A stretch of DNA of 64,000 bases from Bacteroidota bacterium (GTDB taxonomy: Bacteria; Bacteroidota; Bacteroidia; Bacteroidales; SZUA-534), in contig QKGS01000067.1 of the NCBI GenBank assembly GCA_003250355.1, positions 62,001 through 126,000 of the forward strand. The letters run 5' to 3'. Positions 822-18,113 of this stretch are shown here, in pieces (within the stretch, counting starts at the first letter, position 1; each line of letters opens with the position of its first letter). Below the pieces are notes generated by a model. That model was not told where the DNA came from. It saw only the letters and a program-made list of their open reading frames with translations, and made no database searches. Both the position numbers and the translations under genes were made by a program.

Positions 822-829
822 AGTTAATT

Positions 830-1483: not shown

Positions 1484-1494
1484 CAGACATTATT

Positions 1495-2127
1495 ATGGAA
1501 AATCTATTAAATATATTTATAAAGTCCATTTTTATTGACAATATGATTTTTGCATACTTCCTGGGTATGTGTTCATATCTTGCAGTATCAAAAACAGTCA
1601 ATACCTCATTTGGGCTTGGAATAGCAGTAGTATTTGTTCTTGGAATTACAGTTCCTGTCGATTATTTACTACATAACTATGTTTTACGCGAGGGAGCTCT
1701 TGAATGGCTTAATCCTGAATTTGGAATAAATGGTTCAAAAACTTTAGACCTTAGTTTTTTAAGTTTTATTTTATTTATTGCTGTTATTGCATCAATGGTT
1801 CAACTTGTGGAAATGGTAGTTGAAAAATTTGCTCCGGCTCTATACTCTTCACTTGGCATTTTCCTTCCACTTATAGCTGTAAACTGTGCAATACTTGGAG
1901 GTTCATTATTTATGCAGGAACGCGATTATAATAGTATTGGTGAAGCAACTGTATTTGGTATAGGTTCAGGAATAGGTTTTTTCTTAGCCATAATAGGAAT
2001 TGCAGCAATTCGCGAGAAAATTCGTTACTCCGATATTCCGGCACCTCTGCGAGGGCTTGGTATTACTTTTATAATTACCGGATTAATGGCAATTGCCTTT
2101 ATGGGTTTTATGGGAATTAATTTATAA
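1495..2127 (+). CDS. nqrE: Na+-translocating NADH:quinone reductase subunit E
   Basis: NqrE is the partner of NqrD in the membrane domain of the sodium pump, with opposite topology. The 210-residue protein has about six helices and shows two family cysteine segments, [12 protein letters not shown] near residue 26 and [13 protein letters not shown] near residue 130, which match the iron-binding cysteine positions of the family. The length is slightly above the common 198-205 residues. It is followed after 20 bp by nqrF. Confidence 0.95.
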
Positions 2128-2147
2128 CAGACTAAACTAAATAGGAA

Positions 2148-3410
2148 ATGACAATATTAGTAACACAAGGAATGACAACAGGTATGCTTAGCGTCGGAGT
2201 ATTCCTGCTTGTTATTTTGCTTTTGGTTAGCATTCTTCTTTTTGCAAAAAAGAAGCTTACTCCATCGGGCGAAGTAACAATTAATATTAACGAAGGAGAA
2301 AAAGAACTTGTTGTAGAACCGGGAAGTACACTTTTATCGACGCTTGGTAATAATAAAATTTTGCTGCCATCGGCTTGTGGTGGTGGTGGTACTTGCGCTA
2401 TGTGCCGTTGTCAGGTTGAAGAAGGTGCCGGTTCAATACTGCCAACGGAAGCTCCTTATTTTACTCGTAAAGAGCAAGCTGAAAACTGGCGCTTGGCTTG
2501 TCAGGTTAAAGTTAAAGATAACCTTAAAATGAAAATCCCGCATGAGGTTATGGGAGTTAAGAAATGGGAGTGCGAAGTTGTGTCGAACAATAATGTTGCT
2601 ACTTTTATAAAGGAATTTGTAGTGAAATTACCGGCAGGCGAAACTCTAGATTTTAAATCGGGTGGATATATTCAAATTGATGTTCCTAAAATTGATGTCG
2701 ATTTTAAGAATATGATTATTGATGAAGATTATCGTGGCGATTGGGATAAAATGGGACTTTTTGATCTTAAAATGAAAAATCCGGAACCTACTTTCCGTGC
2801 ATATTCTATGGCAAACCACCCTGCAGAGGGCAATATTGTAATGCTAAATATTCGTATTGCAACACCACCATGGGATAGAGCAAAAAATGGTTTTATGAAT
2901 GTTAATCCGGGAGTATGTTCGTCGTATATATTCTCTCGTAAACCGGGCGATAAAGTAACAGTTTCCGGTCCTTATGGTGAATTTTTTATTAAAGAGACTG
3001 AAAATGAAATGATGTTTATAGGTGGTGGTGCTGGTATGGCTCCTATGCGTTCACATATATTTCACTTGTTTCATACTGTAAAAACAGGTCGTAAAGCAAC
3101 ATTTTGGTACGGAGCACGCTCTATGAAAGAGGTTTTTTATAAAGAACAGTTTGATAAAATAGCCGAAGAATTTCCAAATTTTGAGTGGCATTTGGCATTA
3201 TCAGAACCACTTCCCGAGGATAATTGGACAGGTCCAACCGGTTTTATACATCAGGTAATTCACGATAACTATTTAAGCAAACATGAAGAGCCGGAAGATA
3301 TTGAGTATTATCTTTGCGGTCCTCCAATGATGAACGATGCTGTAAATAAAATGCTGTACGACCTTGGAGTTCCTGATGAAATGATAGCTTTTGATGATTT
3401 TGGTTCATAA
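2148..3410 (+). CDS. nqrF: Na+-translocating NADH:quinone reductase subunit F (NADH-oxidising)
   Basis: NqrF accepts electrons from NADH on the cytoplasmic side and passes them through FAD and a [2Fe-2S] cluster into the pump. Visible parts in order are one N-terminal membrane helix (about 14-33), a ferredoxin domain with Cys77, Cys83, Cys86 and Cys118 in the C-x5-C-x2-C-x31-C pattern, a FAD-binding motif R-A-Y-S at 217-220, and the nucleotide motif GGGAGMAPMRSH from about 292. At 420 residues it is full length. It is the last subunit gene, and a strong terminator follows 12 bp after the stop codon. Confidence 0.97.
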   Translation: MTILVTQGMTTGMLSVGVFLLVILLLVSILLFAKKKLTPSGEVTININEGEKELVVEPGSTLLSTLGNNKILLPSACGGGGTCAMCRCQVEEGAGSILPTEAPYFTRKEQAENWRLACQVKVKDNLKMKIPHEVMGVKKWECEVVSNNNVATFIKEFVVKLPAGETLDFKSGGYIQIDVPKIDVDFKNMIIDEDYRGDWDKMGLFDLKMKNPEPTFRAYSMANHPAEGNIVMLNIRIATPPWDRAKNGFMNVNPGVCSSYIFSRKPGDKVTVSGPYGEFFIKETENEMMFIGGGAGMAPMRSHIFHLFHTVKTGRKATFWYGARSMKEVFYKEQFDKIAEEFPNFEWHLALSEPLPEDNWTGPTGFIHQVIHDNYLSKHEEPEDIEYYLCGPPMMNDAVNKMLYDLGVPDEMIAFDDFGS

Positions 3411-3414
3411 AACA

Positions 3415-3457
3415 TAAAAAGAGGGGGTCTAAAAAGTATCGGACACCCCCTTTTTAT
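3415..3457 (+). terminator. Intrinsic terminator after nqrF
   Basis: A GC-rich stem AGGGGGT (3422-3428) pairs with ACCCCCT (3445-3451) around a 16-nt loop and is followed by a T run. An A run precedes the stem, so it could also work in reverse. It closes the nqr operon and separates it from apbE. Confidence 0.85.
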
Positions 3458-3553
3458 TTGTATACATATTCGAGACTTGTATCAAATATCTAACTTAGTG
3501 AGATATAATCAGACTTTTTGGACAGTCGCTTTTTTATATAACTATTTAATTCT

Positions 3554-4549
3554 ATGAAAATAGTCTTTAAAATATGCATTCTAACTTTTTCAATAATCTT
3601 TCTGCTACAATGTAAACCGAAAGAGAGATACATACACAATGAAGGGTTTATTTTTGGTACTACATATCATATAAAGTATGAAAGTACAGTAGATTATCAT
3701 AAAGATATAATCTTATTACTTAATGAATTTAACAAATCGCTTAGTACATACGATAAGAATTCAACAATAAGTAAGATTAATAGAAATGAGAGTTTTACTG
3801 TTGACAGTTACTTTAAAGAGTGCTTCGTAAAAGCACAGAAGATTTCTGAAATTACTAATGGTGCATTTGATATGACAGTAGCCCCCCTGGTAAATATTTG
3901 GGGGTTTGGTTTTGAGCAGTCTGCGGATAACGATAGTTTGTTAATCGACAGCATTAAGCAAATAGTAGGGTATAAGAAGATTGTATTATATGGAGATACA
4001 ATAATTAAGTCGAACCCAAATATAATGCTTGATGCAAGTGCTGTTGCTAAAGGCTATGGGGTTGATATTGTTGCTCAATACTTATTAAATAAAGGCGTTA
4101 CAAACCTAATGGTTGAAATTGGTGGTGAAATTAGTGCAAAAGGTGTTAACCAATCGGGTAAATACTGGAAAGTTGGAATTGATAAGCCAATAGATGACCC
4201 AACCGCTTTAAATAGAGAAATTCAGGAAATAGTTTTTGTTAACAATAAATGTTTGGCAACATCGGGTAATTACCGCCAGTTTTATGTAAAAGATGGTGTT
4301 AAATATTCACATACTATTAATCCTTTTACGGGATATCCTGCCCGTAATACATTATTAAGTACATCGGTTTTGGCCGACGATTGTTTAACTGCCGATGCTT
4401 TTGCAACAGCTTTCATGGTACTTGGAATTGAAGAAGGAGTAGAGTTGGCAAAATCGCTAAATTACATCGATGTTTACTTTATATATTTTTCGCCAGAAGA
4501 TAATGAATTGAAGACTTTCTATACAGAAAAGTTCTTCTTAGAAAAGTAG
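3554..4549 (+). CDS. apbE: FAD:protein FMN transferase (ApbE/Ftp), lipoprotein
   Basis: The enzyme cleaves FAD and attaches the FMN part to a threonine in target proteins such as NqrB and NqrC outside the cytoplasm. A signal peptide ends in the lipobox L-L-Q-C with Cys20 as the lipid site, so the mature protein is probably membrane-anchored on the periplasmic side. Family features seen are the FGTTYHIKYES start of the domain, DMTVAPLVNIWGFG, DASAVAKGYGVD and the C-terminal block HTINPFTGYPA with D-C-L-T-A-D-A-F-A-T-A. The length of 331 residues is normal. It lies just downstream of nqrF but behind a terminator, so it probably has its own transcript. Confidence 0.95.
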   Translation: MKIVFKICILTFSIIFLLQCKPKERYIHNEGFIFGTTYHIKYESTVDYHKDIILLLNEFNKSLSTYDKNSTISKINRNESFTVDSYFKECFVKAQKISEITNGAFDMTVAPLVNIWGFGFEQSADNDSLLIDSIKQIVGYKKIVLYGDTIIKSNPNIMLDASAVAKGYGVDIVAQYLLNKGVTNLMVEIGGEISAKGVNQSGKYWKVGIDKPIDDPTALNREIQEIVFVNNKCLATSGNYRQFYVKDGVKYSHTINPFTGYPARNTLLSTSVLADDCLTADAFATAFMVLGIEEGVELAKSLNYIDVYFIYFSPEDNELKTFYTEKFFLEK

Positions 4550-4647
4550 AATTATTGTGCTAAGCAACATATCATAATTTTATTTCTTCTCATTCATAAG
4601 TTTTATATTGAATATAATATTTCAACTAATCAATCCAAAACTTATCT

Positions 4648-5682
4648 ATGAATGTGTTTTCTCATATATTATTATGTGTAAGTTTAATATTATCGCTTAT
4701 TTCAAGTGCGCAAGTGAAAACTTCAGGAGCAGGAAATAATGATGAAATAGAGATAATTATTAATAATAAAGTTGTAGAATCAATACAGTTATCATTAGAT
4801 GCGTATGATTCATCTGATTTCTTAAACATTACAACTTACGATATAGATGCCCTTATTAAGTCTTGGGAGAAATATAATTCTAAAGAACCTTTAGTAGACG
4901 AAGTTGAGTTAACAGAAGGAAGAACTTTAACGCAAAGTGATTCAATAAAAGAAGACGTAAAACCATTTGTCTCCTCAAGCACCTTACATTATAGCAAACA
5001 AAATGAAATCAAGACTTCATCTGTAAATAAGGAGTATTCAAATGAGGTTTTATTGGGCAATAGTACAAATATTGATTATCAAAATTTAAAATACAGAGTG
5101 CAAATTGCTGCGTCAAAAGTTCCTCTTGATTCTGATTATCTGCAAAAAATATATACAGGCACTAGACAAGTCAAAGAATTTACAGAAGAAGGATGGCATA
5201 AGTACTATATTGCTGAAACAACCACATTAAAAGAAGCTTTAATAATCAGAAAAGAGTCCGCTGTTCACGATGCATTTGTTATGGCATATATGAATGGTGT
5301 TAAAGTTACCTATTATCTCCGGTATTCAGGCAAAAAAGCAGAGAGTAAAGTTGTTGACTATGAGTATAAAACTACAAATATGCCATTGAATAACTCAATT
5401 AATGATTTGGCAGAGTTGAGTAAAAATAAGATAGTTATTGTTGTTCAAATATCAGCAGAGACAAAGGAAGTGAGTATAGATAAGCTTAGAGAAAAATATA
5501 ATGGGAACGAACAAATTAATTATATATATGAAGATGGTTGGCATAAATATTCTTTTGGTAACTATTCTAAATTTTGGCCGGCCAACTATGCAAGAAGGGA
5601 TTGTGGCATAAGCGATGCTTTTGTTGTTGCATATAAAAATGGAAAAAAATATGATTTATGGGCAAATAATAATAATGAATAA
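4648..5682 (+). CDS. Secreted protein with two SPOR-like domains
   Basis: I do not know the exact role. The 344-residue product begins with a signal peptide (hydrophobic stretch at about residues 5-20). Two related segments are visible at about 149-222 and 260-340: each starts with a V-Q-I-(A/S)-A strand, then has (E/D)-G-W-H-K-Y, then D-A-F-V-(M/V)-A-Y-x-N-G. This is the layout of SPOR-like domains, which in other proteins bind denuded peptidoglycan glycans. The region between the signal and the first repeat is polar and probably disordered. It lies 28 bp upstream of a Wza-like gene and may be co-transcribed with the export pair. The SPOR assignment is from pattern only. Confidence 0.7.
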   Translation: MNVFSHILLCVSLILSLISSAQVKTSGAGNNDEIEIIINNKVVESIQLSLDAYDSSDFLNITTYDIDALIKSWEKYNSKEPLVDEVELTEGRTLTQSDSIKEDVKPFVSSSTLHYSKQNEIKTSSVNKEYSNEVLLGNSTNIDYQNLKYRVQIAASKVPLDSDYLQKIYTGTRQVKEFTEEGWHKYYIAETTTLKEALIIRKESAVHDAFVMAYMNGVKVTYYLRYSGKKAESKVVDYEYKTTNMPLNNSINDLAELSKNKIVIVVQISAETKEVSIDKLREKYNGNEQINYIYEDGWHKYSFGNYSKFWPANYARRDCGISDAFVVAYKNGKKYDLWANNNNE

Positions 5683-5710
5683 GTTTTAAACCATACTAAA
5701 TACCCAAAAT

Positions 5711-6475
5711 ATGAAACACATAACAATTAAGAATGTATTGATATTAGCAGTAATTCTATTATCATCATCATGTATACGACAAAGTAAAACATGGATTTTA
5801 CAAGACTCAAAAAATACTACATCAGGAGAATATAGTAATCCTGTAAAAACTGCTTATAAAATTAAACCCGGTGATAACTTATACATAAATGTATTTAGTA
5901 CCGATAAAGGTACCAGTGCTTACTTTCAAACTAATTATCCTCAGTTAATGAGCCAAACATATCTTCATTTGAATAGCTATATAGTAAATGAGGAAGGATA
6001 TATTTCATTTTCAGTTATTGAAAAAATGATGGTTAAGGGTTTAACAGTAGAAGAGGTACAACAAAAATTGCAATCAACTCTTAGTTCCTATTTTAAAGAT
6101 GTTACTGTTTCTGTAAAAATGGTAAGTTACATGGTTTCAGTGATAGGTGAAGTTGAAAGTCCGGGAAAATTTAGAATACCTGAAGAACAATCAAATATTT
6201 TGGAAATTATTGCAATGGCAGGTGGATTTAAAGAATATGCGAACAGAAAAGAAATTACTATTGTTAGACAAACCGATTCGGGTTCTCAAATATTGTATAC
6301 CGACTTAACGGAAAAAAATGCACTTAGTGCCGAAACTTTTTATTTAATGCCTCATGATGTCGTGTATGTAAAATCATTGAAGAGCAAATCAACAACTTAC
6401 GAAAAGCTACCTTACGGAGTACTAATTTCAACGCTTTCGTTAATTATTGCAGTACTTGCGTTAACACAAAACTAA
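5711..6475 (+). CDS. Polysaccharide export lipoprotein (Wza-like)
   Basis: This is an outer-membrane polysaccharide export protein. A lipoprotein signal ends at S-S-S-C with Cys21. The poly-export domain begins at about residue 50 (YKIKPGDNLYINVF), and an SLBB domain follows at about 140-215 (VSVIGEVESPGKFRIPEEQ). A C-terminal hydrophobic helix (about 235-252) fits the membrane-spanning helix of Wza. At 254 residues it is shorter than E. coli Wza and has one SLBB domain, as is common in Bacteroidota. Its stop codon is one base from the BY-kinase start, so the pair is translationally close. Confidence 0.9.
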   Translation: MKHITIKNVLILAVILLSSSCIRQSKTWILQDSKNTTSGEYSNPVKTAYKIKPGDNLYINVFSTDKGTSAYFQTNYPQLMSQTYLHLNSYIVNEEGYISFSVIEKMMVKGLTVEEVQQKLQSTLSSYFKDVTVSVKMVSYMVSVIGEVESPGKFRIPEEQSNILEIIAMAGGFKEYANRKEITIVRQTDSGSQILYTDLTEKNALSAETFYLMPHDVVYVKSLKSKSTTYEKLPYGVLISTLSLIIAVLALTQN

Positions 6476-6476
6476 T

Positions 6477-8807
6477 ATGAAAATATCTGATGATTATTAT
6501 GAAGAGACTATTGATATAAAAGAAATATTATTTAAAGTATTATCTCATAAGTTTCTTTTTATGGTTTTTATTCTTGTTGGCATTGTTATTGCATTTTTAA
6601 TTAATACAATAAAAACCCATAGTTACGAAGTGTATACTACGATTCTTGTTAATGACAAAAATAATACAATCACTACTCAAGACTTAATAGGGATTGATGT
6701 TTACAAAAGTTCAAATAGTATAAATAATGAAATAGAAATTTTAAAATCAGTAAGTTTATTAAAAGAGGTTTTTGGAAACTTAAATATTAATGTTTCATAC
6801 TTTAAAAAAGGTAAGCTTAATAATGTAGAGCTTTATAAGAATGCTCCTTTTGTTGTAAGTGTTGATAGTAATTGTTACTATCCGATAAACTGTTATTTTA
6901 CAGCTAAAATTATTTCGAATGACTCAATTGTAATAAGCAATAGTAGTGGAGAGTTTCTGTTTTATAATTATAAATTAAATACAGGCTTTTTAGAATCTGT
7001 TGAAAAAAAAATATTCTCAGTGAAATTTGAAGATTCTATCAAAACGAGTGTTGGAAATTTTATAATTAATAGGAATACTCTTTTTTCATCAACAGAAAAC
7101 TATATTGGGACAGAGTATCTGTTTTGTTTTAATAATTTTAGAACTAATTATTCTGAATTTAGCAATATTTCACTAAGCAATATCGACAACTCTTCTATTA
7201 TTAAGATTTCATTAAGACACAACTCTTTAGAGAAAAGTATTGATTTTTTGAATGAATTAACTACAATTTATCTAAAGAATGAACTGGATAAAAAGAATAT
7301 TGTTGCTGATCGGACTCTCGATTTTATAAATGAACATCTTATCGAAATAAATGATTCGCTTCTTTCATCAGAGCAGTTGTTGCGAAAATTTCAATCGTCA
7401 AAAAAAGCGTTACAGATTGATTATCAGACGGAAAAATCATTAGAGCAAGCCGATCGCCTGCAAGAACAACTTGCAGAAATAATTATTACAAAAAAATATT
7501 ATGAATATATAATCAAAACACTAAACTATGATAGTATACAATTTGATATTATTGTTCCATCACTTATGAACATCAATAATCAAATTTTAACTGATCAAAT
7601 ATCAAAACTTATTGAATTACAATCGCAGAAAAACAACCTAAAAATAAACTCCAATAGTGAAAACCCATATATAACATCGCTTAACGAAAAAATTAAAAAT
7701 TCGAAAGATGTAATAACTGAATACATTAACAATGAAACAAATAATATTGATACTAAAATCAATAATATAAACACAAGGATAAATAATACTTTCGATAAGA
7801 TTAATAATATTCCGGAAACACAAAGAGAGCTACTTAAATATGAGCGTAAATTCAATATATATAACAATATATACACCTTCCTGCTCGAAAAGAAATCGGA
7901 AACATTGCTTACTAAGGCTTCTAATACTCCAAATAATTATGTGATAGATGCAGCTAACAGATACAATTACAAAGTGATAACTAAAAAAAGTGGTAATATA
8001 TATTTGACATTATTATTTCTAAGCTTAATCATTCCATCTCTCTATATATTCTTTAAATATTATTTCAACAAAAAAATATTATCAGACAAGGATATTAACG
8101 GAATATGTAATTATCCGATTTTAGCTCACATTTTGAAAGGTAAATCAGAAGAAAATGCTTTTTTGGATACAAAATCAAATATTGCAGAATCATTCAGAAT
8201 GCTTCGTACTAATTTAGATTTTGCAATAAGAGATAAGAAATCAAAAATTATTCTCATAACATCGTCTATTCAAGGAGAAGGTAAAAGTTATGTTTCAGGA
8301 AATCTGGCACGGAGTTTAGCGATTAATAATAAAAAAGCTATACTGTTGGTTTTTGATTTAAGAAAACCCAAATTATATTTCGATAATATTCATAATAATT
8401 TTGGTATTACCGACTTTTTAATAAATAAGAAAGATTTAGATGAGATAATTCACAAAACAGGTAAAAATAACCCTGATATAATTACGGCAGGTACCCAGCC
8501 ACCTAACCCTGCAGAAATAATAAATACAGAAAACACAAAAAAATTATTCGATGAACTGAGGAAAAAATATGATTATATAATTGTAGATACTCCTCCAATA
8601 GGTATAATAGTTGACGGTATGCTATTAACCGACTATTCCGATGCAAATATTGTAATAGTGAGATATAACTATACGCCGGCAAAACAATTTGAGAATACTA
8701 TCAAAAACATTAACTCAAAGAATATTAATAAAACATACATTATTCCAAATTACATGGACACAAATAATAACCAATATGGATATTATTATAAATATGAATA
8801 CAATTAA
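6477..8807 (+). CDS. Wzc-like chain-length determinant / tyrosine autokinase (BY-kinase)
   Basis: The protein couples an inner-membrane chain-length (Wzz) domain with a cytoplasmic bacterial tyrosine kinase. Membrane helices lie at about residues 25-45 and 508-525 with a long, partly coiled-coil periplasmic part between them. The kinase domain shows Walker A SSIQGEGKSYVSGN near residue 600, the A-prime motif VFDLRKPKLY and the Walker B-like YIIVDTPPIGIIVDG. The C-terminus ends in a tyrosine-rich tail (YGYYYKYEYN), the autophosphorylation cluster typical of these kinases. It is paired with the preceding Wza-like gene. The coding sequence is very AT-rich with many Asn/Ile repeats. It overlaps the convergent small gene at 8804 by 4 bp. 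Confidence 0.92.
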   Translation: MKISDDYYEETIDIKEILFKVLSHKFLFMVFILVGIVIAFLINTIKTHSYEVYTTILVNDKNNTITTQDLIGIDVYKSSNSINNEIEILKSVSLLKEVFGNLNINVSYFKKGKLNNVELYKNAPFVVSVDSNCYYPINCYFTAKIISNDSIVISNSSGEFLFYNYKLNTGFLESVEKKIFSVKFEDSIKTSVGNFIINRNTLFSSTENYIGTEYLFCFNNFRTNYSEFSNISLSNIDNSSIIKISLRHNSLEKSIDFLNELTTIYLKNELDKKNIVADRTLDFINEHLIEINDSLLSSEQLLRKFQSSKKALQIDYQTEKSLEQADRLQEQLAEIIITKKYYEYIIKTLNYDSIQFDIIVPSLMNINNQILTDQISKLIELQSQKNNLKINSNSENPYITSLNEKIKNSKDVITEYINNETNNIDTKINNINTRINNTFDKINNIPETQRELLKYERKFNIYNNIYTFLLEKKSETLLTKASNTPNNYVIDAANRYNYKVITKKSGNIYLTLLFLSLIIPSLYIFFKYYFNKKILSDKDINGICNYPILAHILKGKSEENAFLDTKSNIAESFRMLRTNLDFAIRDKKSKIILITSSIQGEGKSYVSGNLARSLAINNKKAILLVFDLRKPKLYFDNIHNNFGITDFLINKKDLDEIIHKTGKNNPDIITAGTQPPNPAEIINTENTKKLFDELRKKYDYIIVDTPPIGIIVDGMLLTDYSDANIVIVRYNYTPAKQFENTIKNINSKNINKTYIIPNYMDTNNNQYGYYYKYEYN

Positions 8808-9080: not shown

Positions 9081-11480
9081 TTATTTGAAACGAGGTTTGA
9101 ATCGGTTAATTAGTGATTTTTTGACAGGTTTATCGTCATAGTAGTTCTCACCATATCCGTAACCATACCCGTAGCCATATCCGTAGCCATACCCGTAGCC
9201 ATATCGTTTGCCATAATATCCTTGTACCGATACATCGTTAACTAATACATTGAAGTCGGGAATTTTGTCGTTTTTATTTAAGTCATTAAGTAATTCTAAA
9301 GACTCTTTCTGGCTATAATTTTGGCGAATTACAAAAATATTTAAATCTGAAAATTTTGAAAACAGAATTGCATCCGATACCATTGCAACAGGCGGGGTGT
9401 CTACTATTACATAATCAAAGTTTGCTCTGGCATATTCAATAAATTTACTTAATGCTTTTGTTTCCAATAATTGGCCCGGGTTGGGAGGGATAGGTCCTGA
9501 CGGAGTAAAATACAGTCCTTCAACCGATGTTTCAAATATTATATCTTCAATATTACATTTATCAATCAAATATGTGGTCATGCCAATATCGTTCGATACT
9601 TTAAAATTATTGTGGAGTTTCGGTTTGCGCAAATCTAATCCAATCAGCAATGTTTTTTTATGTGTCATTGAAATAACAGCAGCTAAGTTTAATGCACAGA
9701 ATGTTTTTCCTTCTCCACTAATTGACGATGTAATTGCAATAACCTTTTTATTGTCATCGAATAGCATATATTGCAAATTAGTTTTTACGGCCCTAAATGA
9801 TTCCGATATTGATAATCGCGGATTGTCAACTACTACTAAATCTTTTTCTTTGTCATTATGGCCAATAGTTCCTAGAATTGGAGCTTTGGTATTGGATTCA
9901 ATATCTTTGCGTGATAATATTTTATTGTTGAAAAAATCACGAACTATTATTATTAAAAATGGAATAATCAAACCCACTGCCAATGCAATCATATAATTCA
10001 TTTTTGTCTTTGGCGATATTTTTGCCGACCTTCTAGCCATAGCTTTGTCTAAAACTATTGCATCGGGCATATTTGATGCCTGAGTTATTCCGGCTTCTGC
10101 GCGTTTCTCTAGCAGATATGTATATATTTGGTCATTCAAATCAAATTTTCTCTTTATTCTTATCATTTTGCGCTCATTGAATGGCAATTTCATTATTTCT
10201 TTATCAAGAAAACTAATTTGCTCTTCAATCTCTTCTCTCGTTATAGAGTTTGTCTCCAGTAAATTATTGACATTATCTTTAAGTACTCTTTTTAATTCAG
10301 ATATTTGTTCAGAAACTAACTCTAGTTGTGGATTTGATTTTACTGTCTGAATTTTTAAAGCCAATCTTTCAGAATTAAGCTCGTTTATTTTCATTATAGT
10401 ATTCACCAAAAGATTATCAGATATTCCTACGGAAGTTGGAACAATAATATCCTGATCTTTCCTGCCATCAAGGTAATCTCTTAAATATGTAAAGTATTTT
10501 GTTTCTAGATTTAATTGCGCAAGTTTAGTTTCATAGTGTTGATATTTTTCATATAGTGCCTGACCTTTTTTATCTAAATCAATTATCTTGTTTTCTATCC
10601 GAAAATCTTGTAATCTATTTTCAGTTACTTCTAATGAGTCGCTTATATCTCTTAATTCATTATCAATAAAATCGATTGTGCTTTTAGCGATACTGTTTTT
10701 CTCTTCTAAGCTATTTCGGATATATACTTCGGTAAGTTTATTTAAATAATCAACAGCTTTTGCCGGAACATGATTCTTAATAGATAATGTAAGAATACTC
10801 CCTTCTTCATCATACATATTGACACCTAACGATGCTGCATGGCTCGCTGCTAATTGGAATGGGTCGTTTATTGTAAAAAATATTCTATCATTATCAGGGA
10901 TAGAGAACTTTTCTATATCTCTAATTAAAATACGAAATTTGAAATTGGCATCCTCAAATATTTCTCCAAACAACATTTTTCTATCACTATTTTTGTCGAA
11001 TATTTTATAGCTTAATTTGTATTCCGAGGTTGATAGAATAGTAACATATACCGGTATACCATATCTTTGACTAAATGTGGTATCATAATCAACCATTAAA
11101 TTAGCAGGTTTGTATAATTCATGATCTCTAATTGTTCCAACACCATAGTATGAAACACCGAAATCGAGTTCAGAAAGAACTTTCTTATTTAATTCAAATG
11201 ACTTTAGAATTGCTATCTGATTCTTTAAATTAGCACCTTGTTTGAAAAGTTGCAGCGATTGAATCATTTCATCATCATAATACGAATTTTTATTGTCTTC
11301 TCTAAGTAGTATTGTAGTACTTACAGCAAATACCGGGTTGGCGTAACGATTTTTTACATAAGCTATTGATAACGTAATGAATACAAAAAGTACAAACCAA
11401 TACCAATTAGCTATAATTTTTCCAATATACTTTTTTATATCGATAGTTTCTTCAGTCAATAATTCTTCCTTATAACTCAT
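9081..11480 (-). CDS. Wzc-like chain-length determinant / tyrosine autokinase (BY-kinase), second copy
   Basis: This is a paralogue of the kinase at 6477 with the same layout: Wzz-type membrane domain with helices at about 27-47 and 515-535, a coiled-coil periplasmic region (about 270-480), then the BY-kinase domain. Walker A is SSISGEGKTFCALN near residue 590, Walker A-prime is GLDLRKPKLH, and Walker B is YVIVDTPPVAMVSD. The C-terminal tail has eight consecutive Tyr-Gly pairs and then a basic end (KKSLINRFKPRFK). It follows the Wza-like gene at 11482-12267 by one base and is read in the opposite direction to the first pair. Confidence 0.93.
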   Translation of the reverse strand: MSYKEELLTEETIDIKKYIGKIIANWYWFVLFVFITLSIAYVKNRYANPVFAVSTTILLREDNKNSYYDDEMIQSLQLFKQGANLKNQIAILKSFELNKKVLSELDFGVSYYGVGTIRDHELYKPANLMVDYDTTFSQRYGIPVYVTILSTSEYKLSYKIFDKNSDRKMLFGEIFEDANFKFRILIRDIEKFSIPDNDRIFFTINDPFQLAASHAASLGVNMYDEEGSILTLSIKNHVPAKAVDYLNKLTEVYIRNSLEEKNSIAKSTIDFIDNELRDISDSLEVTENRLQDFRIENKIIDLDKKGQALYEKYQHYETKLAQLNLETKYFTYLRDYLDGRKDQDIIVPTSVGISDNLLVNTIMKINELNSERLALKIQTVKSNPQLELVSEQISELKRVLKDNVNNLLETNSITREEIEEQISFLDKEIMKLPFNERKMIRIKRKFDLNDQIYTYLLEKRAEAGITQASNMPDAIVLDKAMARRSAKISPKTKMNYMIALAVGLIIPFLIIIVRDFFNNKILSRKDIESNTKAPILGTIGHNDKEKDLVVVDNPRLSISESFRAVKTNLQYMLFDDNKKVIAITSSISGEGKTFCALNLAAVISMTHKKTLLIGLDLRKPKLHNNFKVSNDIGMTTYLIDKCNIEDIIFETSVEGLYFTPSGPIPPNPGQLLETKALSKFIEYARANFDYVIVDTPPVAMVSDAILFSKFSDLNIFVIRQNYSQKESLELLNDLNKNDKIPDFNVLVNDVSVQGYYGKRYGYGYGYGYGYGYGYGYGENYYDDKPVKKSLINRFKPRFK
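9151..9204 (-). repeat. 6/12-bp tandem repeat encoding the (Tyr-Gly)n kinase tail
   Basis: On the plus strand the unit CCATAYCCGTAR repeats about four and a half times and reads as Tyr-Gly pairs in the kinase gene on the minus strand. Units alternate between CCATATCCGTA and CCATACCCGTA. A near-perfect in-frame tandem repeat of this kind can change copy number by slippage, altering the number of phosphorylatable tyrosines without a frameshift. Confidence 0.85.
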
Positions 11481-11481
11481 A

Positions 11482-12267
11482 TTATTTCTCTAAATATGTA
11501 AGAATAACAATAAGTGTGGTTAAGCTGGTTAGCAATAACGAAATTGAACCCATATTAACACTAAATACTTTGCTGCGCAATGGCTTAACGTATACAACAT
11601 CATTGGGTTTGAGCCAAAAATAGGGGCTTGAATAAAAGTCGGACGATGTTAAATCCAGCTCTTCGGTGGTTGATATTCCATTTATTTTTCGAATAATTAA
11701 AACACTTGACCGGTCGCCATATGTGGAAATATCACCAGCTTCTCCAAGTGCATCAAGTAAATTTACATCTCTTTTATAGAATGTATGTGTACCAGGTTTT
11801 GAAAATTCTCCGAGCATAGTAATGCGATAACTTAACAAACGAATATCAATAACAATACCCTTTAAATATTCATTAAAAGCTGATTGTAGTTTCTCTCTAG
11901 CCTGAGCTAAAGTCATATTACTGAGCGAAACTTTTCCAATTAAAGGCAACTCTACATCGCCACGTTTATCAAGTATATATCCCTGAATATAAAGTGAAGC
12001 ATCAGAATATGTTGAATGCTGTGAACCTGCATTTTTGTCGAACATATATAACTGTTTAATGTCAGTACCTGCAATGTCAATATAAATATTATCACCGGGT
12101 AATAATAATATGTCAGTATCTTCTATATTAGAGACTTTTATAGAGTCAGATGCCTCATTGTGGTATCTATCTTGTAAATAAACTATTTTTTTATAGCGAG
12201 TACAATTTGATAATAGTATAACGATCAAAAATGCGATAATTATCAGACTAGTTTCTTTATATTTCAT
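11482..12267 (-). CDS. Polysaccharide export lipoprotein (Wza-like), second copy
   Basis: This is the partner of the second BY-kinase. The signal peptide ends in L-L-S-N-C, a lipobox. The poly-export domain starts around residue 54 (LLPGDNIYIDIAGTD), and an SLBB segment (ITMLGEFSKPGTHTF) lies around residue 150. A C-terminal helix (about 236-258) corresponds to the outer-membrane helix. It resembles the copy at 5711 in length and layout. A textbook promoter lies directly upstream, so this pair starts its own transcript that runs leftwards into the kinase. Confidence 0.9.
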   Translation of the reverse strand: MKYKETSLIIIAFLIVILLSNCTRYKKIVYLQDRYHNEASDSIKVSNIEDTDILLLPGDNIYIDIAGTDIKQLYMFDKNAGSQHSTYSDASLYIQGYILDKRGDVELPLIGKVSLSNMTLAQAREKLQSAFNEYLKGIVIDIRLLSYRITMLGEFSKPGTHTFYKRDVNLLDALGEAGDISTYGDRSSVLIIRKINGISTTEELDLTSSDFYSSPYFWLKPNDVVYVKPLRSKVFSVNMGSISLLLTSLTTLIVILTYLEK

Positions 12268-12467: not shown

Positions 12468-15400
12468 ATGAGAAGAATATTATTATCATTAAGTGTCATT
12501 ACACTTGCATTGAATATATTTGCTCAGTCGGTTACCACTGACAGTAGTGTTGTTTCCGGTTTAAGTGCAACTGTATATGGAACGTACATACCTTCAGGGA
12601 TATTAGCCGGTGGTGAATTTATATATGGTACATCGCCAGATAATCTAAATTTATCAGCTAATGCTACCCCAACATTTAGTTTTTCGCATAAATCAGCAAA
12701 TGCTATATTAACACCGTCTACAGAAGTAACTTATTATTATGCTTTTAGAGCAGTAACAGCTTCTGAGGATACTGTTTATGGTGATACTTTGTCATTTCTG
12801 ATTCCAACCACCCCTTCTGTTCAAGCTCATTCGCTTAATTTGAATAGTAATATTGAACCTGCATCTATTTATGCTTTGTGGAGTAAAGGGAGTGGTGCTA
12901 GAAGAATTTGTTTGGTTAATACGGCTAATTCATTTCCAACTTCAGTTGATTTAAATACTAATGACTATTCAGCTACGGCAAATGCAAATTATTTAAGTGC
13001 TCCCTCAGCTGCCGGTTCAACAGGAGCAAAAGTGGTTTATGCTTCAAATGGCGCTAATGTTAATGTTACCGGCTTGTCGGAGAATACTCAGTATTTTTTT
13101 AAAGTTATTGAGTATAATTTTACAGGAGCATCAACCGATTATTCTGATGCTGTTGGTTCAAATAATCCTTCAAGTGAAACAACTATATTATCGGCACCAA
13201 CTATGCAAGCATACAATATTGCGTTTTCAAATGTTGAGGATAAAACCATGAATATATCATGGACAAATGGCAATGGTGCTAACCGGGTTTGTATAATTAG
13301 CGACGACAATACATTTACAAGCCTAACCGATAAAACAACATACCCGGCAAATACTGTTTATAGTGGAAGTGGCGATCAGGTTATTTACAATGGAACAGGA
13401 ACTACTGTGAGTGTGTCGGGACTTAGTGCAAGTACAACATACTATTTTAAAATAGTTGAATATAATAATGTTCCCGGTTTAGAAAAATACAATAATAATA
13501 CAGCAACAGATAATCCAAATAATCAGACAACTACCGCTGCTTATCAGGCGGAAGATGTAATACTTGCAAACCTTACAAATAATTCAGTAGATGTATCATG
13601 GACTAATGGTCAGGGAGCGAACAGGGTTTGTCTTGTGAATACATCAAATTCTTTTCCTACTTCGGTCGACCTTGATGGTCAAGATTATTCGGGTACAGCA
13701 AGTTCCGATTATTCAATAGCACCCGATGCTGCTGGAGCAACAGGTGCTAAGGTTGTATATGCAAATTCAGGGAGTAGTGTTATTATTACCGGTTTGAACG
13801 GCAATACACAGTATTATATTAAGGTAATAGAGTATAATGGTACAGGAGCCGGAACTACATATTTTGATCATGTAGGGGCTAATAATCCGAATAATGCAAC
13901 TACATATAAAGATGCTCCAGATACTCAGGCTACAGCGGTAAGTTTTGCAAATGTAGATGAAAACTCTATGGATATATCGTGGACAAACGGAAATGGTGAT
14001 GGCAGAGTTTGTATTATAAATACAGTAAATTCATTCTCAAATATAGAAGATGGTTCCACTCCAACTGCAAATACTGTATATGGGGGAGGAGAACAGGTTC
14101 TTTACAATGGTGTAGGAACCGGAGTAACTGTAACTGGGTTAAATGCTTTAACAAAATACTTTGTAAAAGTTGTTGAATATAGCAATGGTGCAGGTAATGA
14201 GATATATAACAATAGTACTGCTGTTGATAATCCGGATAGTACTACTACTACTGCAAAGCCGGCGCCAACAGTTCAGGCATTGAACTTATCGTTTTCATCT
14301 ATTACCAATAACTCAATAACTGTTACATGGGAACGAGGTAATGGCGAGGGTTGTCTTTTGCTAATAAATGAAGATAATAACTTTTGGTCGGTACCCGATG
14401 GTTTCAATAATTGTGATTATGCAAATACCGATTATACCGATTTATTTGCAAGGGCAAATGGAGAACATTTTGCATATTGCGGAACAGGAACATCTGCAAT
14501 TATTACAAATTTAAATGCAGCAACCACATATTATTTTAAAGTTGTTGAGTATAATAATTCAGGGAGCGATATAAAATATATACATAGTGCATCAACAAAT
14601 AATCCAAGTAGTTCGTCGACTTTAAAAAATGCACCTACAATACAGGCTTCGTCTATAGTGGCTGATGCAACATACAGCTCTTCGATTGATTTAAGTTGGA
14701 CTGCTGGAAATGGAGATAATAAAGTTTGTTTTATAAACACTTCAAACAGTTTTCCGGCATCGCTTACCGATGGAACAGTGTATGCTGTTGGACAAATTGT
14801 GGGTGGAGCTGAAGTTATTTATGTTGGAAGTAATAACAGTACTACGGCTACGGGGCTGTCGGCCGAAACTACATACTGGTTTCGTGTGTATGAATATAAT
14901 AATACAGGTACTGCTACTAAATATATAAACGCCACTGCAACAAATAATCCGAATAGTTTTGCAACAGTTGGTATTATAACATGGAATGGGGGGACATCAT
15001 CAAATTGGGATGTTGGTACAAATTGGTCGGGAGGAGCAGAACCCAATGGTTCTGATGTTATTATATCCGGTTTAGCAGCTAATATGCCTATAATTAGTTC
15101 AACAGGCAATACTGTAAACGATATTACAATTGAGGCAGGAGCTTCGTTAACAATTAATAATGGTTGTGCACTTTCTGTATCAGGGAATGCCATAATAAAA
15201 ACACCTGGAGATAATGGAGCAACCGGACAGCTTGTTATTCCCGGTAATGGTACGTTTAATGTAAGCGGAACAACAACTGTTGAGCGTTCAATAAATAATG
15301 ACGGAACTTTTATATTGGCACCTATTACTACTGCTAATGCTTACAGTTCTTATTACGGTTATTATGTCGATGTTTTTGACGAAAGTGCTCTAGGTAATGG

Positions 15401-16565
15401 TTATGGCGGTTGGGTTTATAAAGATTCGGCATACAACCAAACAGGGTTAGAAGCTTGCTTTATTAATAAAGGGGGAGCCTCTCCGGCAACAATTTCATAT
15501 ACAGGAACGCTTAAGAATGGAAATCAATCAATTTCAATAAATGATTCAGGGGGTGATGCCGATAATGGATGGGCTATAGTTGGTAATCCATACCCTTGCG
15601 CTATTGATGTAGAAAATGCAGGATTTAACTATGGTAATATAGAACCAATTATATATATATATAATCATGGCACATCGTATGCTCAATATGATATTTCTAC
15701 TCACTTTGGAACCAATGGAGGAACCCAATACGTAGCAGCAATGCAGGGATTCTGGATGGAAAATACTACTGGTTCGGCGCAAAGTTTACAAATATCAAAT
15801 TCATGTCGAGTTTCAGATGTTGCTACTTTCTATAAAAAGCAAACGGCTGAATTTCCATTAATAAAACTTAGAGCTTCTAATGATGTGTCGGAATGTGAAG
15901 CAGCGATACTCTTCCTTGAAGGATTTACTTCGGAGCTTGATAAAAGCGAGGCCAAGTTTATTGACGACCCTTGGGGAAGAGTATTTGGGGCTTATACCAA
16001 ATCTACCGATGGACAGAAACTTGCTATTAATAAACTGTCACTATCTGATTTTGAAAATATAAATAATGAGGACTCTATTTTTGTTGATTTAGGATTGTTG
16101 GCCAATAATTATGATTATATAACAATTGAAGCTATTGATATTAGGAATGTGCCAAGTTATGTTGATATAAGGTTATATAATAAAATGACTAATAAGTCAG
16201 TGTCGCTTATTGGTAATTCTCCAATAATTAATGTTGCTTTCAGTGAAACTAATTCCAATGATAGAGGTACAAATGAAGATTTTCAGGTTCTTTTAACTAA
16301 GAAAACTGCTATAAGCAGTGAAGATAATATTGCAGATGCCAATATTTCTTATTTTGTAAATGAAAATATTGCAACTGTTAGCTCTAATATGTTTTTAAAC
16401 AATTCGGGTACAATATTTGTTTATGATATAACAGGTCGATTAGTATCGTCGAAGAATTTAGATAATAACATTGAGTATAATATACATTTGCCTTCAAAGG
16501 GTACTTATTTAATAAAAACAGAATTAAATAATAATATTTTTACGAAGAAAGTTGTAAACATATAA
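12468..16565 (+). CDS. Large multi-module secreted protein with T9SS type A sorting domain
   Basis: This 1365-residue protein is predicted to be exported and attached to the cell surface. It has a signal peptide (about 1-19), then six related modules of roughly 100-130 residues between about 110 and 830. Each has a core such as (I/V)-x-(I/W)-S-W-T-N-G-N-G-A-N-R-V-C and ends near Y-(Y/F)-(F/I)-K-V-(I/V)-E-Y-N, a fibronectin III-like pattern. A WNGGTSSNWDVGTNWSGG segment near 840 starts a different domain seen in other Bacteroidota surface proteins. The last 75 residues (FVYDITGRLVSSKNL, then GTYLIKTELNNN, ending KKVVNI) form a type A T9SS C-terminal signal. Ligand and function are unknown. Confidence 0.85.
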   Translation: MRRILLSLSVITLALNIFAQSVTTDSSVVSGLSATVYGTYIPSGILAGGEFIYGTSPDNLNLSANATPTFSFSHKSANAILTPSTEVTYYYAFRAVTASEDTVYGDTLSFLIPTTPSVQAHSLNLNSNIEPASIYALWSKGSGARRICLVNTANSFPTSVDLNTNDYSATANANYLSAPSAAGSTGAKVVYASNGANVNVTGLSENTQYFFKVIEYNFTGASTDYSDAVGSNNPSSETTILSAPTMQAYNIAFSNVEDKTMNISWTNGNGANRVCIISDDNTFTSLTDKTTYPANTVYSGSGDQVIYNGTGTTVSVSGLSASTTYYFKIVEYNNVPGLEKYNNNTATDNPNNQTTTAAYQAEDVILANLTNNSVDVSWTNGQGANRVCLVNTSNSFPTSVDLDGQDYSGTASSDYSIAPDAAGATGAKVVYANSGSSVIITGLNGNTQYYIKVIEYNGTGAGTTYFDHVGANNPNNATTYKDAPDTQATAVSFANVDENSMDISWTNGNGDGRVCIINTVNSFSNIEDGSTPTANTVYGGGEQVLYNGVGTGVTVTGLNALTKYFVKVVEYSNGAGNEIYNNSTAVDNPDSTTTTAKPAPTVQALNLSFSSITNNSITVTWERGNGEGCLLLINEDNNFWSVPDGFNNCDYANTDYTDLFARANGEHFAYCGTGTSAIITNLNAATTYYFKVVEYNNSGSDIKYIHSASTNNPSSSSTLKNAPTIQASSIVADATYSSSIDLSWTAGNGDNKVCFINTSNSFPASLTDGTVYAVGQIVGGAEVIYVGSNNSTTATGLSAETTYWFRVYEYNNTGTATKYINATATNNPNSFATVGIITWNGGTSSNWDVGTNWSGGAEPNGSDVIISGLAANMPIISSTGNTVNDITIEAGASLTINNGCALSVSGNAIIKTPGDNGATGQLVIPGNGTFNVSGTTTVERSINNDGTFILAPITTANAYSSYYGYYVDVFDESALGNGYGGWVYKDSAYNQTGLEACFINKGGASPATISYTGTLKNGNQSISINDSGGDADNGWAIVGNPYPCAIDVENAGFNYGNIEPIIYIYNHGTSYAQYDISTHFGTNGGTQYVAAMQGFWMENTTGSAQSLQISNSCRVSDVATFYKKQTAEFPLIKLRASNDVSECEAAILFLEGFTSELDKSEAKFIDDPWGRVFGAYTKSTDGQKLAINKLSLSDFENINNEDSIFVDLGLLANNYDYITIEAIDIRNVPSYVDIRLYNKMTNKSVSLIGNSPIINVAFSETNSNDRGTNEDFQVLLTKKTAISSEDNIADANISYFVNENIATVSSNMFLNNSGTIFVYDITGRLVSSKNLDNNIEYNIHLPSKGTYLIKTELNNNIFTKKVVNI

Positions 16566-16583
16566 TATAAATGTTTATTTTTG
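16552..16583 (+). promoter_or_regulatory. Promoter of the small CTERM-protein gene
   Basis: TTG (16552-16554) is followed after 21 nt by TATTTTTG (16576-16583), matching the Bacteroidota consensus. The predicted start near 16590 lies 6 nt before the ATG at 16596. This gives the small gene its own promoter inside and after the end of the preceding gene, and argues against the TTG at 16581 as start codon. Confidence 0.6.
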
Positions 16584-16595
16584 AGGTGTCTGATT

Positions 16596-16868
16596 ATGAA
16601 AAGAATACGTATAATATTATTGTTAGTTTTCTTATTTGCTCTATCGCTTGCAGGTGTTGCTGCTGATGATGAGAGTAAAACAAATAGTGAGTTTACTAAA
16701 AGTAGCTTCAAGAAAACAAGTAGTGGTCCATCAATGATACCTGGTACCGGAGGTGCCGGTTCGGGAGGTGGAGGAGCCCCGATACCTGTATCCGGAGGAT
16801 TTATAGTATTGGTCATAGGTAGTATTATATATTTATCGAAAAAAGTGCGTGACGATATTAAAAAATAA
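16596..16868 (+). CDS. Small secreted protein with PEP-CTERM-like C-terminal sorting signal
   Basis: From the ATG at 16596 the product is 90 residues long. It has a signal peptide (about 1-22, cleavage near GVAA-DD), a polar middle and a Gly-rich linker (GTGGAGSGGGGA). It ends in a three-part sorting signal: the short motif P-I-P-V-S-G-G, a membrane helix of about 15 residues (FIVLVIGSIIYL) and a basic tail (KKVRDDIKK). This is the architecture of exosortase substrates and resembles the PID-CTERM type of small Bacteroidota proteins. The next gene encodes an exosortase-like enzyme and overlaps by 20 bp. That the two are substrate and enzyme is inference from architecture and position. Confidence 0.75.
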   Translation: MKRIRIILLLVFLFALSLAGVAADDESKTNSEFTKSSFKKTSSGPSMIPGTGGAGSGGGGAPIPVSGGFIVLVIGSIIYLSKKVRDDIKK

Positions 16869-17424
16869 CAAGTTTATTAAGATTTATAAAGAGAACCTCT
16901 CAATTAAAACCAGAAAGGAAATTGAGAGGTTTTTTTTGTCGTTTGCTGCTGCATGGTTTTTCAAAACACTATTGAATGAATTTCCTTTTTTTATTCAACT
17001 ATTTTATCTGGGGCATTTCGATACCCTACTTCAGAATATTATAATAAATGAAACACGTTTTATTCTTAATGGAATAGGTTATTCTGTTTATACAGAGGGA
17101 ATATTTTTGCAAATCGAAGATACACCGGGAGTACGGTTTGAATTTGGTTGTCTTGCTGTTCGCCACTTAACTCTTTTTGCGGTATTTATACTGTTCTATT
17201 ATGGTAAATGGTATCATAAAGTTTGGTATATAATATGTGGTGTATTTGTTATAACCGGTGTTAATGCTATTAGAGCTTCGCTTTTATGTATTTTTCAGGT
17301 TCATAAACCTGAAAGTTTTGCTACTATGCACGACATTGTTTTTCCTCCTTTTATGTATTTACTTATATTTATTCTTTGGATTATATGGGTATTATTATGG
17401 GGTAATGTCAATTTTGAAAGGTAA
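16849..17424 (+). CDS. Exosortase/archaeosortase family transpeptidase
   Basis: The 191-residue product has about five to six membrane helices. The exosortase catalytic triad can be placed: Cys101 in FEFGCLAVRHL, Arg142 in GVNAIRASLL and His161 in ATMHDIVFPPF, each at the edge of a helix. Family enzymes cut the C-terminal signal of a substrate and are thought to transfer it to a membrane or surface acceptor. The frame opens with a GTG at 16849; no ATG precedes the first helix, and a TTG at 16936 is the only other plausible early start (162 residues). The GTG start is preferred because the basic segment KTRKEIERFF before the first helix resembles N-termini of related enzymes. Codons 16-28 coincide with a terminator-like hairpin. 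Confidence 0.78.
   Translation: MTILKNNKFIKIYKENLSIKTRKEIERFFLSFAAAWFFKTLLNEFPFFIQLFYLGHFDTLLQNIIINETRFILNGIGYSVYTEGIFLQIEDTPGVRFEFGCLAVRHLTLFAVFILFYYGKWYHKVWYIICGVFVITGVNAIRASLLCIFQVHKPESFATMHDIVFPPFMYLLIFILWIIWVLLWGNVNFER
16894..16937 (+). terminator. Intrinsic terminator/attenuator inside the 5-prime part of the exosortase frame
   Basis: AACCTCTCAATT (16894-16905) and AATTGAGAGGTT (16920-16931) form a perfect 12-bp stem with a 14-nt loop, followed by seven T residues (16931-16937). It lies 26 bp after the stop of the small CTERM gene and within the sortase frame. It would end most transcripts after the substrate gene and let only read-through reach the sortase. Confidence 0.8.
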
Positions 17425-17516: not shown

Positions 17517-18113
17517 ATGAGAATGTCGTATAATGTAGATTTGTTTAATATAGATCATAATTTAAAAGGGTTAAGAAAAGGTAAATGTTTGATATCAGAG
17601 CCTTTTTCGCCTGATTCTTTTTTTGGTCGTTCTATAGTTTTTATTACTGAACACAATAGTGAAGAGGGTACTTTAGGATATATTCTTAATAAACCGGTTG
17701 ATATACCTATTGAAGAGTTATTTCCTGATTTTCCATCATTCGATGCGCAATGCTATATTGGAGGTCCGGTGGGAACAGATACAATTCATTTTATTCATAC
17801 CAGAAATGATTTGTTGCCTGATTGTATTCATATACAAGGTAATTTATATTTGGGCGGTAATTTTGATACATTAAAAGAGTTGGTTAGTGCAAAACAAATT
17901 TTAAAGCATGAAATACGTTTTTTTTTAGGATATAGTGGGTGGGCTCCTAAGCAACTTGCTTCTGAAATAGAAGAAAAACACTGGATAGTATCAGATATTG
18001 ATGCGGATAAAATTATGAAAATAAATGAAGAATCGTGGGCGAATATACTTACCAATATGGGTAGTTCGTATGCTTTATGGGCTAAGTCGCCATTGAATCC
18101 TACATTGAATTAA
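17517..18113 (+). CDS. YqgE/AlgH family protein
   Basis: The sequence matches the YqgE/AlgH (UPF0301) family: KGKCLISEPFSPDSFFGRSIVFI near residue 22, then GTLGYILNKP and CYIGGPVGTDTIHFIH around 60-100, and LYLGGNFDTLKEL. The molecular role of the family is not firmly known; it is cytosolic and has been linked to regulation in pseudomonads. Length (198) is normal. A second in-frame ATG lies at 17523. The gene ends 4 bp before the convergent aminotransferase gene. Confidence 0.9.
   Translation: MRMSYNVDLFNIDHNLKGLRKGKCLISEPFSPDSFFGRSIVFITEHNSEEGTLGYILNKPVDIPIEELFPDFPSFDAQCYIGGPVGTDTIHFIHTRNDLLPDCIHIQGNLYLGGNFDTLKELVSAKQILKHEIRFFLGYSGWAPKQLASEIEEKHWIVSDIDADKIMKINEESWANILTNMGSSYALWAKSPLNPTLN

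Follow-up and report, generated by a model that had tools for sequence, protein, structure and literature searches.

A T9SS Cargo, a Small Protein with an Exosortase-Type Tail, and an XrtX-Related Exosortase Encoded in a Row in Salinivirgaceae

Introduction

Until it is cut at a recognition motif and its new C-terminus is passed to a carrier, an exported protein is retained in the inner membrane by its exosortase tail. According to the excerpts of the papers cited in this paragraph, surface colonization and biofilm formation by Flavobacterium johnsoniae need the exosortase gene xrtF, its partner gene, and genes of the type IX secretion system (T9SS) (PMC10936215), and the targets of XrtF are stated to be unknown (PMC12188702). 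PEP-CTERM proteins of two floc-forming bacteria stabilize the contact between polysaccharide and cell surface (PMC12188702), archaeosortase A (ArtA) attaches a lipid to cut C-termini (PMC7157517), and the glycosylation of T9SS cargos has been compared with exosortase systems (PMC7468200). Here, we analyze a stretch of 64,000 nucleotides (hereafter the window) from contig QKGS01000067.1 of a Bacteroidota bacterium, in which the genes for a T9SS cargo, a 90-residue protein with an exosortase-type tail, and an exosortase follow one another.

Results

The three genes lie in a row on the forward strand, and close relatives of the locus were found in five other genomes of Salinivirgaceae. From sequence comparisons, it is probable that the 90-residue protein is matured by the exosortase to serve as partner or tether for the neighboring class of T9SS cargo and that polysaccharide export is tied into the system. 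The original prediction, made from the window alone, had read the last two genes as a dedicated one-substrate pair, with a T9SS cargo gene directly upstream. This cargo is real: the type A sorting domain (TIGR04183, cut-off 23) scores 28.7 bits in the window protein and 34.9–46.3 bits in those of the five relatives. The possibility, also raised there, that two surface-sorting routes meet at the locus is supported by the T9SS cargo upstream in 6/6 related loci and by the order-wide survey that follows.

This survey covered 294 genomes of Bacteroidales, the order within which Salinivirgaceae is placed. PID-CTERM tails (NF046080) are matched in 77 genomes and exosortases in 123; 71 genomes hold both (Fisher 4e-27). 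Among the PID-CTERM matches listed, the 60 best-scoring loci were retained, three of which lack an upstream gene on their contig. The T9SS type A sorting domain (TIGR04183, E 0.01) was found at the C-termini of 32 of the 57 remaining upstream proteins versus 4 of 140 control genes, drawn at random from 197 in the same stretches (Fisher 4e-17). The 32 cargo loci named below come from our own profile, refined on the upstream set, which matched 32 of the 57 and 6 of the 197 controls. By this profile, 13 of the 60 tail loci lie beside an exosortase gene, 31 behind a T9SS cargo gene, one lies beside both, and 15 beside neither. The 32 cargo-linked tails are spread over 17 genomes from ten families, and all 17 genomes encode an exosortase. 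At one Flavobacteriales locus (L103), the genes for an exosortase, a 162-residue membrane protein, a T9SS cargo, and a PID-CTERM protein form a row; G009, from the window's family, has a similar row with a longer, XrtY-like enzyme. Targets of the exosortase-tail type and T9SS cargos stand side by side far beyond chance, which suggests that the two routes of surface display work together.

The paired cargos share a domain of about 155 residues that precedes the sorting domain and contains, in the alignment, an invariant Phe and near-invariant Lys, Pro, Asp, Leu, and Arg. Pfam has no family for it in the ten stretches scanned, and NCBIfam gave a single weak match, in 1 of 28 domain stretches. 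As 28 of the 32 paired cargos seeded our domain profile, the match to 32/32 is in part built in, and independent tests are provided by the Salinivirgaceae, G009, and L103 cargos. The profile matches all six Salinivirgaceae cargos, none of which was in the seed (window, 1.4e-9; others, 5.5e-25 or better, with 5e-29 as the best), as well as those of G009 (4.7e-28) and L103 (4e-22). Among the 315 other open reading frames of the 60 loci, it matches one, which itself adjoins a tail gene. No match below E 1e-3 was obtained with 28 further T9SS cargos from the window's genome. That genome alone has 82 matches to the sorting domain, and the undescribed domain offers a way to predict which among so many T9SS cargos take part in the pairing. 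In four of the six Salinivirgaceae cargos, it lies directly before the sorting domain.

Across the order, the domain is present in 166 of the 294 genomes: 113 of the 123 with an exosortase and 53 of the 171 without. A strict link between the two was tested for and not found, the domain being the wider. We checked downstream of 44 domain cargos, 36 sampled at regular intervals from the list and eight chosen for their exosortase-free genomes; two more were dropped at a contig end, and L306, with 319 bases left, was scored as tail-less. A tail gene follows 20 of 33 such cargos in exosortase genomes (11 of 24 when the nine already among the 60 loci are set aside). From the genome counts and these downstream counts, we conclude that the domain is linked with the exosortase system and is wider than it.

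Behind five tail-less domain cargos lies a small, helix-less peptide of the KIKIDN-I-MMSE-DPP-NPFK type (L307, 749–1197; L334, 1931–2221, reverse strand; L330, 758–931; L321, 741–932; L323, 743–967). At L307 and L334, a PqqD-family protein (PF05402, above cut-off) comes after the cargo, and no exosortase was detected in four of the five genomes with such a peptide. These loci look like a peptide-modification system that would replace the exosortase tail. At L332 (G217:C23), tandem, near-identical, tail-like small proteins ending in SDSLW and a helix without GG lie behind a domain cargo, in a genome where no exosortase was detected.

The small protein has the anatomy first described for it: a hydrophobic N-terminus, a Gly-rich stretch, the motif PIPVSGG, a helix, and the basic end KKVRDDIKK. 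Motif, hydrophobic helix, and basic end make up the tripartite sorting tail of exosortase targets, and its secretion is judged from the hydrophobic N-terminus only. AlphaFold2 places helices at residues 2–22 and 67–89 around a low-confidence middle (mean predicted local distance difference test score [pLDDT] of 65). No NCBIfam or Pfam family matches the protein above cut-off. The label PID-CTERM (NF046080, cut-off 26 bits) was rejected for it, as the window protein and those of L004, L006, L007, and L008 have no match at E 1; the tails of L055 and L047 have none at E 0.1, and none above cut-off exists anywhere in the window's genome. The exact F-x4-F-x-K pattern in 7/7 tail proteins suggests that the function of the mature peptide is conserved. 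A mechanically listed open frame of 103 residues runs antisense to the tail gene (16505–16816, reverse strand), and nothing marks it as a gene.

Tail profiles run over 20 genomes of the family strongly matched one protein in each of the six enzyme-bearing genomes and a second one in the window's genome. This second tail protein, of 111 residues, is encoded on another contig far from the exosortase (G000:C92:161599–161934; L055, 1318–1653). It scores 4e-5 with the whole-protein profile and 5.3e-18 with that of the tail; the next tail match in the 20 genomes is at E 0.075, and no better one was found in the genomes without the enzyme. The protein begins with a hydrophobic stretch, carries the F-x4-F-x-K motif and an extended Gly/Asn linker, and has VPVHGGFIVLAVGSAVFIACRVRRDMK as its tail. 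Its neighbors resemble DNA polymerase IV and other unrelated-looking genes, as named by resemblance. Weaker tail matches in the genome and family (E >0.07), inspected in part (L048, L049, L057, and L061), were not accepted as targets; of these, L049 corresponds to the G009 locus, which has a PID-like tail of its own.

These data bear on whether the enzyme is dedicated to one target, as the original prediction suggested, and independent of the T9SS. The tail and exosortase genes are adjacent and overlapping, a single exosortase of the genome passes the family cut-off, and each of the five relatives has one tail protein, all of which would fit such a system. The claim that no other protein carries such a tail stands for the 64-kb window and fails for the genome. 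Because the second protein shares both the tail and the F-x4-F-x-K motif, this is not a one-target system, and the T9SS pairing also speaks against independence; we consider a dedicated pair improbable. Nor is a single neighboring target special to this genome by the PID-CTERM counts in Bacteroidales: among the matches listed, 37 of the 77 genomes show one and 40 show two to six. Separation of tail and enzyme genes, which had been proposed as a sign against the pair, is found in the wider PID-CTERM group, where 46 of the 60 tail loci have no exosortase within 600 bases, and is not seen in the Salinivirgaceae clade.

The third gene encodes a member of the exosortase/archaeosortase superfamily (TIGR04178, 42.7 bits, cut-off 23; PF09721, 33.1 bits, cut-off 25.7), its GTG start overlapping the tail gene by 20 bases. 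Cys101, Arg142, and His161, which we take to be the catalytic residues of exosortases, stand exactly where the original prediction put them and are invariant in two exosortase alignments (11/11 and 33/33). The AlphaFold2 model is multi-helical and confident (mean pLDDT of 90.1). Among solved structures (PDB), there is no relative by sequence at E 1 and no Foldseek fold match at E 0.001.

The best-ranked specific model for the enzyme is XrtX (NF046081; 85.6 bits, cut-off 170), followed by XrtF (TIGR04128; 67.3 bits, cut-off 90), and both labels were rejected. The five close relatives score 59.9–90.0 bits against XrtX, and the scanned examples of enzymes adjoining true PID-CTERM proteins (L010, L011, L013, L106, and L142) score 124–180 bits. 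In a quick tree, computed without bootstrap from 63 of the 103 exosortase sequences that were usable, the six Salinivirgaceae enzymes form their own clade (Shimodaira–Hasegawa-like approximate likelihood ratio test [SH-aLRT] of 99). It lies outside the PID-CTERM-linked clade, which is its sister (SH-aLRT of 96 for the joint group). The window enzyme is, judged by its sequence, an undescribed relative of XrtX, inside the exosortase superfamily and outside XrtX and XrtF as NCBI defines them. In a wider contig scan (80 loci kept), close matches (E <=2e-26, the next being 3e-19) came only from five metagenome-assembled genomes named as Salinivirgaceae, Marinilabiliales, or Bacteroidetes, which correspond to G001, G002, G004, G005, and G007. 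Two weak exosortase matches, in G000:C83 (E 0.3, with internal stops) and in G008 (E 0.007 across 46 residues), were not counted. One relative has a second, distant exosortase (G002:C263:1138–1689; L193, L041) beside polysaccharide deacetylase-like and FemAB-type-like genes.

A close enzyme (E <1e-80) occurs in six of the 20 genomes of the family, with the tail protein directly upstream in all six. The proposed comparison of gene order showed the row cargo–tail–exosortase to be conserved in every one of them, within the order wzc–wza (divergent), cargo, tail gene, exosortase, yqgE, and then a pabC-like gene and further genes on the opposite strand; in G001, the tail gene and the exosortase gene sit at facing contig ends. 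The cargos of the six loci range from 853 to 2588 residues. In all 12 checkable genomes without the enzyme (11 of genus g4, and G006), pabC lies directly beside wza, and the cargo, tail, exosortase, and yqgE genes are missing there as a block. Two of the 20 genomes could not be scored for the block, as G009 breaks exactly there and G011 is incomplete. YqgE/AlgH is not matched at E 1e-5 in any of the 11 g4 genomes, which also lack the exosortase block, and G006 retains a distant yqgE elsewhere in its genome. Wza is kept in 20/20 genomes, including those without an exosortase (in G011, by a distant match only).

The joint presence or absence of tail and enzyme in the family, together with their co-occurrence in the order (71 of the 77 PID-CTERM genomes), argues against the small protein not being a target at all, that is, against its staying anchored by its helix and helping cargo secretion while the exosortase acts elsewhere. 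The tail does resemble a plain C-terminal anchor, cleavage in this family is presumed by analogy, and where no exosortase was detected in the genome, 4 of 11 domain cargos still precede such a protein; even so, we give this explanation very little credit.

A Wzc-type kinase with a GYGYGYG-like repeat end lies divergently beside XrtX-type exosortase or tail genes at six of seven loci (L103, L106, L130, L142, L144, and L150; not L112). Given this, the Wza and Wzc genes adjoining all six Salinivirgaceae loci, and the tie of PEP-CTERM proteins to polysaccharide (excerpt of PMC12188702), the exosortase–tail pair might serve polysaccharide assembly alone, the peptide being attached to or holding the polysaccharide exported by Wza/Wzc, and the T9SS cargo being merely co-expressed and never touching it. 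We judge this unlikely. Wza is kept with or without the exosortase, the 31 PID-CTERM loci lying behind a T9SS cargo gene have no detected exosortase in the stretch, and plain co-expression does not predict one domain common to the cargos. The window also contains, at 99–8807, a further gene row with a second Wza-like match (~5738–6460) and a second Wzc-like kinase (6477–8807), which makes two Wza/Wzc export pairs within 12 kb.

The promoter pattern proposed for the tail gene is present as described, with TTG at 16552, 21 bases of spacing, and TATTTTTG at 16576–16583. As a bipartite pattern it is common by chance: TTG-N17..23-TANNTTTG is not rare in this AT-rich window, with 21 occurrences on both strands versus 16.5 expected under a dinucleotide Markov model. 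The −7 box is conserved: [TC]ANNTTTG, a one-letter relaxation picked after looking at the loci, ends 10–25 bases 5' of the ATG in 6/6 related loci versus 3.8% of random 40-base windows. The TTG half falls within the cargo gene, whose end lies 30 bases before the start of the tail gene, and has no counterpart at N17–23 in G004 and G001. A promoter of its own is plausible for the tail gene, and read-through from the cargo gene could serve in its place.

Table 1. Coordinates of the features of the locus in the window
Feature	Position	Strand	Basis
Wzc-like tyrosine kinase, GYGYGYG C-terminus	9081..11480	-	TIGR01007 146 bits, above cut-off; adjoins Wza in 6 loci
Wza-like polysaccharide export protein, divergent neighbor	11482..12267	-	PF02563 and PF22461 above cut-off; neighbor in 6/6 loci
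T9SS cargo (partner gene), 1365 aa, fibronectin-III-like repeats	12468..16565	+	TIGR04183 28.7 bits (cut-off 23); PF00041 and PF16656, 6 stretches each
Undescribed domain of ~155 aa preceding the T9SS sorting domain, cargo residues 1113-1266	15804..16265	+	E 1.4e-9, profile without the window cargo
Promoter-like site of Bacteroidota type, TTG-N21-TATTTTTG	16552..16583	+	-7 box kept in 6/6 loci
Tail protein, 90 aa: signal-peptide-like N-terminus, F33-x4-F38-x-K40, Gly-rich linker, tail	16596..16868	+	ATG 16596, stop 16866-16868
F-x4-F-x-K motif in the mature peptide, residues 33-40	16692..16715	+	Exact in 7/7 family tail proteins
PIPVSGG, presumed exosortase recognition site, residues 62-68	16779..16799	+	P64 and G68 invariant in 7/7 tail proteins
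Exosortase, XrtX-related, Salinivirgaceae clade, 191 aa	16849..17424	+	GTG start; TIGR04178 and PF09721 above cut-off
Cys101 codon, likely catalytic	17149..17151	+	Invariant in 33/33
Arg142 codon, likely catalytic	17272..17274	+	Invariant in 33/33
His161 codon, likely catalytic	17329..17331	+	Invariant in 33/33
YqgE/AlgH-like protein, sharing the unit's gain or loss in the family	17517..18113	+	PF02622 138.6 bits

Discussion

A partner or tether of T9SS cargo is the best reading of the small protein because its product is short and Gly-rich with one conserved motif and because of the gene pairing. The tail protein would be exported by Sec and lose its signal peptide, its C-terminal helix keeping it in the inner membrane. 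The exosortase would then cut at or near PIPVSGG through Cys101 and join the new C-terminus to a moiety, probably lipid- or glycan-linked. The freed Gly-rich peptide of about 40 residues, carrying the F-x4-F-x-K motif and looking disordered, would be a surface partner or tether for the T9SS cargo, or for the cargo plus the polysaccharide exported by Wza/Wzc. Polysaccharide is a likely third party because of Wza and Wzc at the Salinivirgaceae loci and the Wzc-type kinase at six of the seven XrtX-type loci. We infer the cleavage site, the attached moiety, the final location, the binding of tail protein to cargo, and any role in adhesion or in a matrix.

Several observations weigh against a partner matured for T9SS cargo. 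Six of the 77 PID-CTERM genomes have no detected exosortase, and 25 of the 57 upstream genes do not encode T9SS cargos, most of those tails adjoining an exosortase or neither kind of gene. The cargo domain is found more widely than the exosortase (166 vs. 123 of the 294 genomes); in exosortase genomes, no tail gene was detected downstream of 13 of the 33 domain cargos, and a tail gene follows 4 of the 11 in genomes without a detected exosortase. Two of the six Salinivirgaceae cargos (L075 and L076) have other repeats interposed between this domain and the sorting domain. No T9SS cargo gene adjoins that of the second tail protein in the window's genome. Finally, one event, a single gain or a single loss, may account for the shared presence or absence within the family.

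Extending the partner reading to the whole group, it is about an even call that XrtX-group exosortases serve the T9SS in Bacteroidota. A domain-marked cargo would be encoded with its own exosortase-matured partner, and two unrelated sorting routes would build one surface complex, perhaps on the neighboring polysaccharide. The Salinivirgaceae locus would be the condensed version of this arrangement, its cargo, partner, and enzyme genes standing in a row; that of the window amounts to a compact four-gene system. Two sorting routes may meet on one surface complex, and the pairing of T9SS cargo and exosortase-tail genes offers a concrete, testable cause for the resemblance of xrtF mutants to T9SS mutants. 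The excerpts of PMC7468200 and PMC10936215 do not contain this gene pairing. Literature searches combining exosortase or PEP-CTERM with T9SS or type IX secretion, or exosortase with Bacteroidota, gave no other candidate report of it; PID-CTERM had no literature match, and XrtX only unrelated ones among those listed.

Four described systems can be compared with this locus. PEP-CTERM/EpsH of Gram-negative bacteria shares with it the enzyme superfamily, the tripartite tail, and the link to polysaccharide genes; unlike it, the window's genome has two tail proteins, not dozens, a motif other than PEP, and a T9SS partner gene. XrtF (TIGR04128) of F. johnsoniae is likewise a Bacteroidota exosortase and the second-best specific model, and it shares a surface-colonization phenotype with T9SS mutants (excerpt of PMC10936215); the window enzyme, in contrast, has no adjoining gene for a membrane partner of about 160 residues, which L103, L106, L130, L142, and L144 have. 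Like T9SS type A cargos anchored to the surface through attachment by PorU, the upstream protein has a sorting domain above cut-off at 6/6 loci, but it is directly followed by an exosortase-type tail protein and belongs to a cargo class marked by an extra shared domain.

The closest likeness is to XrtX/PID-CTERM (NF046081/NF046080), with a short exosortase, the same triad, and a sister clade. The target there is usually a secreted protein of 60–95 residues with a Pro/Gly-rich middle and an xPxDGG–helix–basic tail, similar to that of the window. The differences are that the enzyme reaches 85.6 of 170 bits (relatives 60–90), that the tails read PI[PN]xSGG or alike and lack a PID-CTERM match, and that the target gene lies between those of the T9SS cargo and the exosortase. 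The unit of the window probably works like exosortase systems of the XrtX/PID-CTERM kind, and its link to a T9SS cargo is possibly new.

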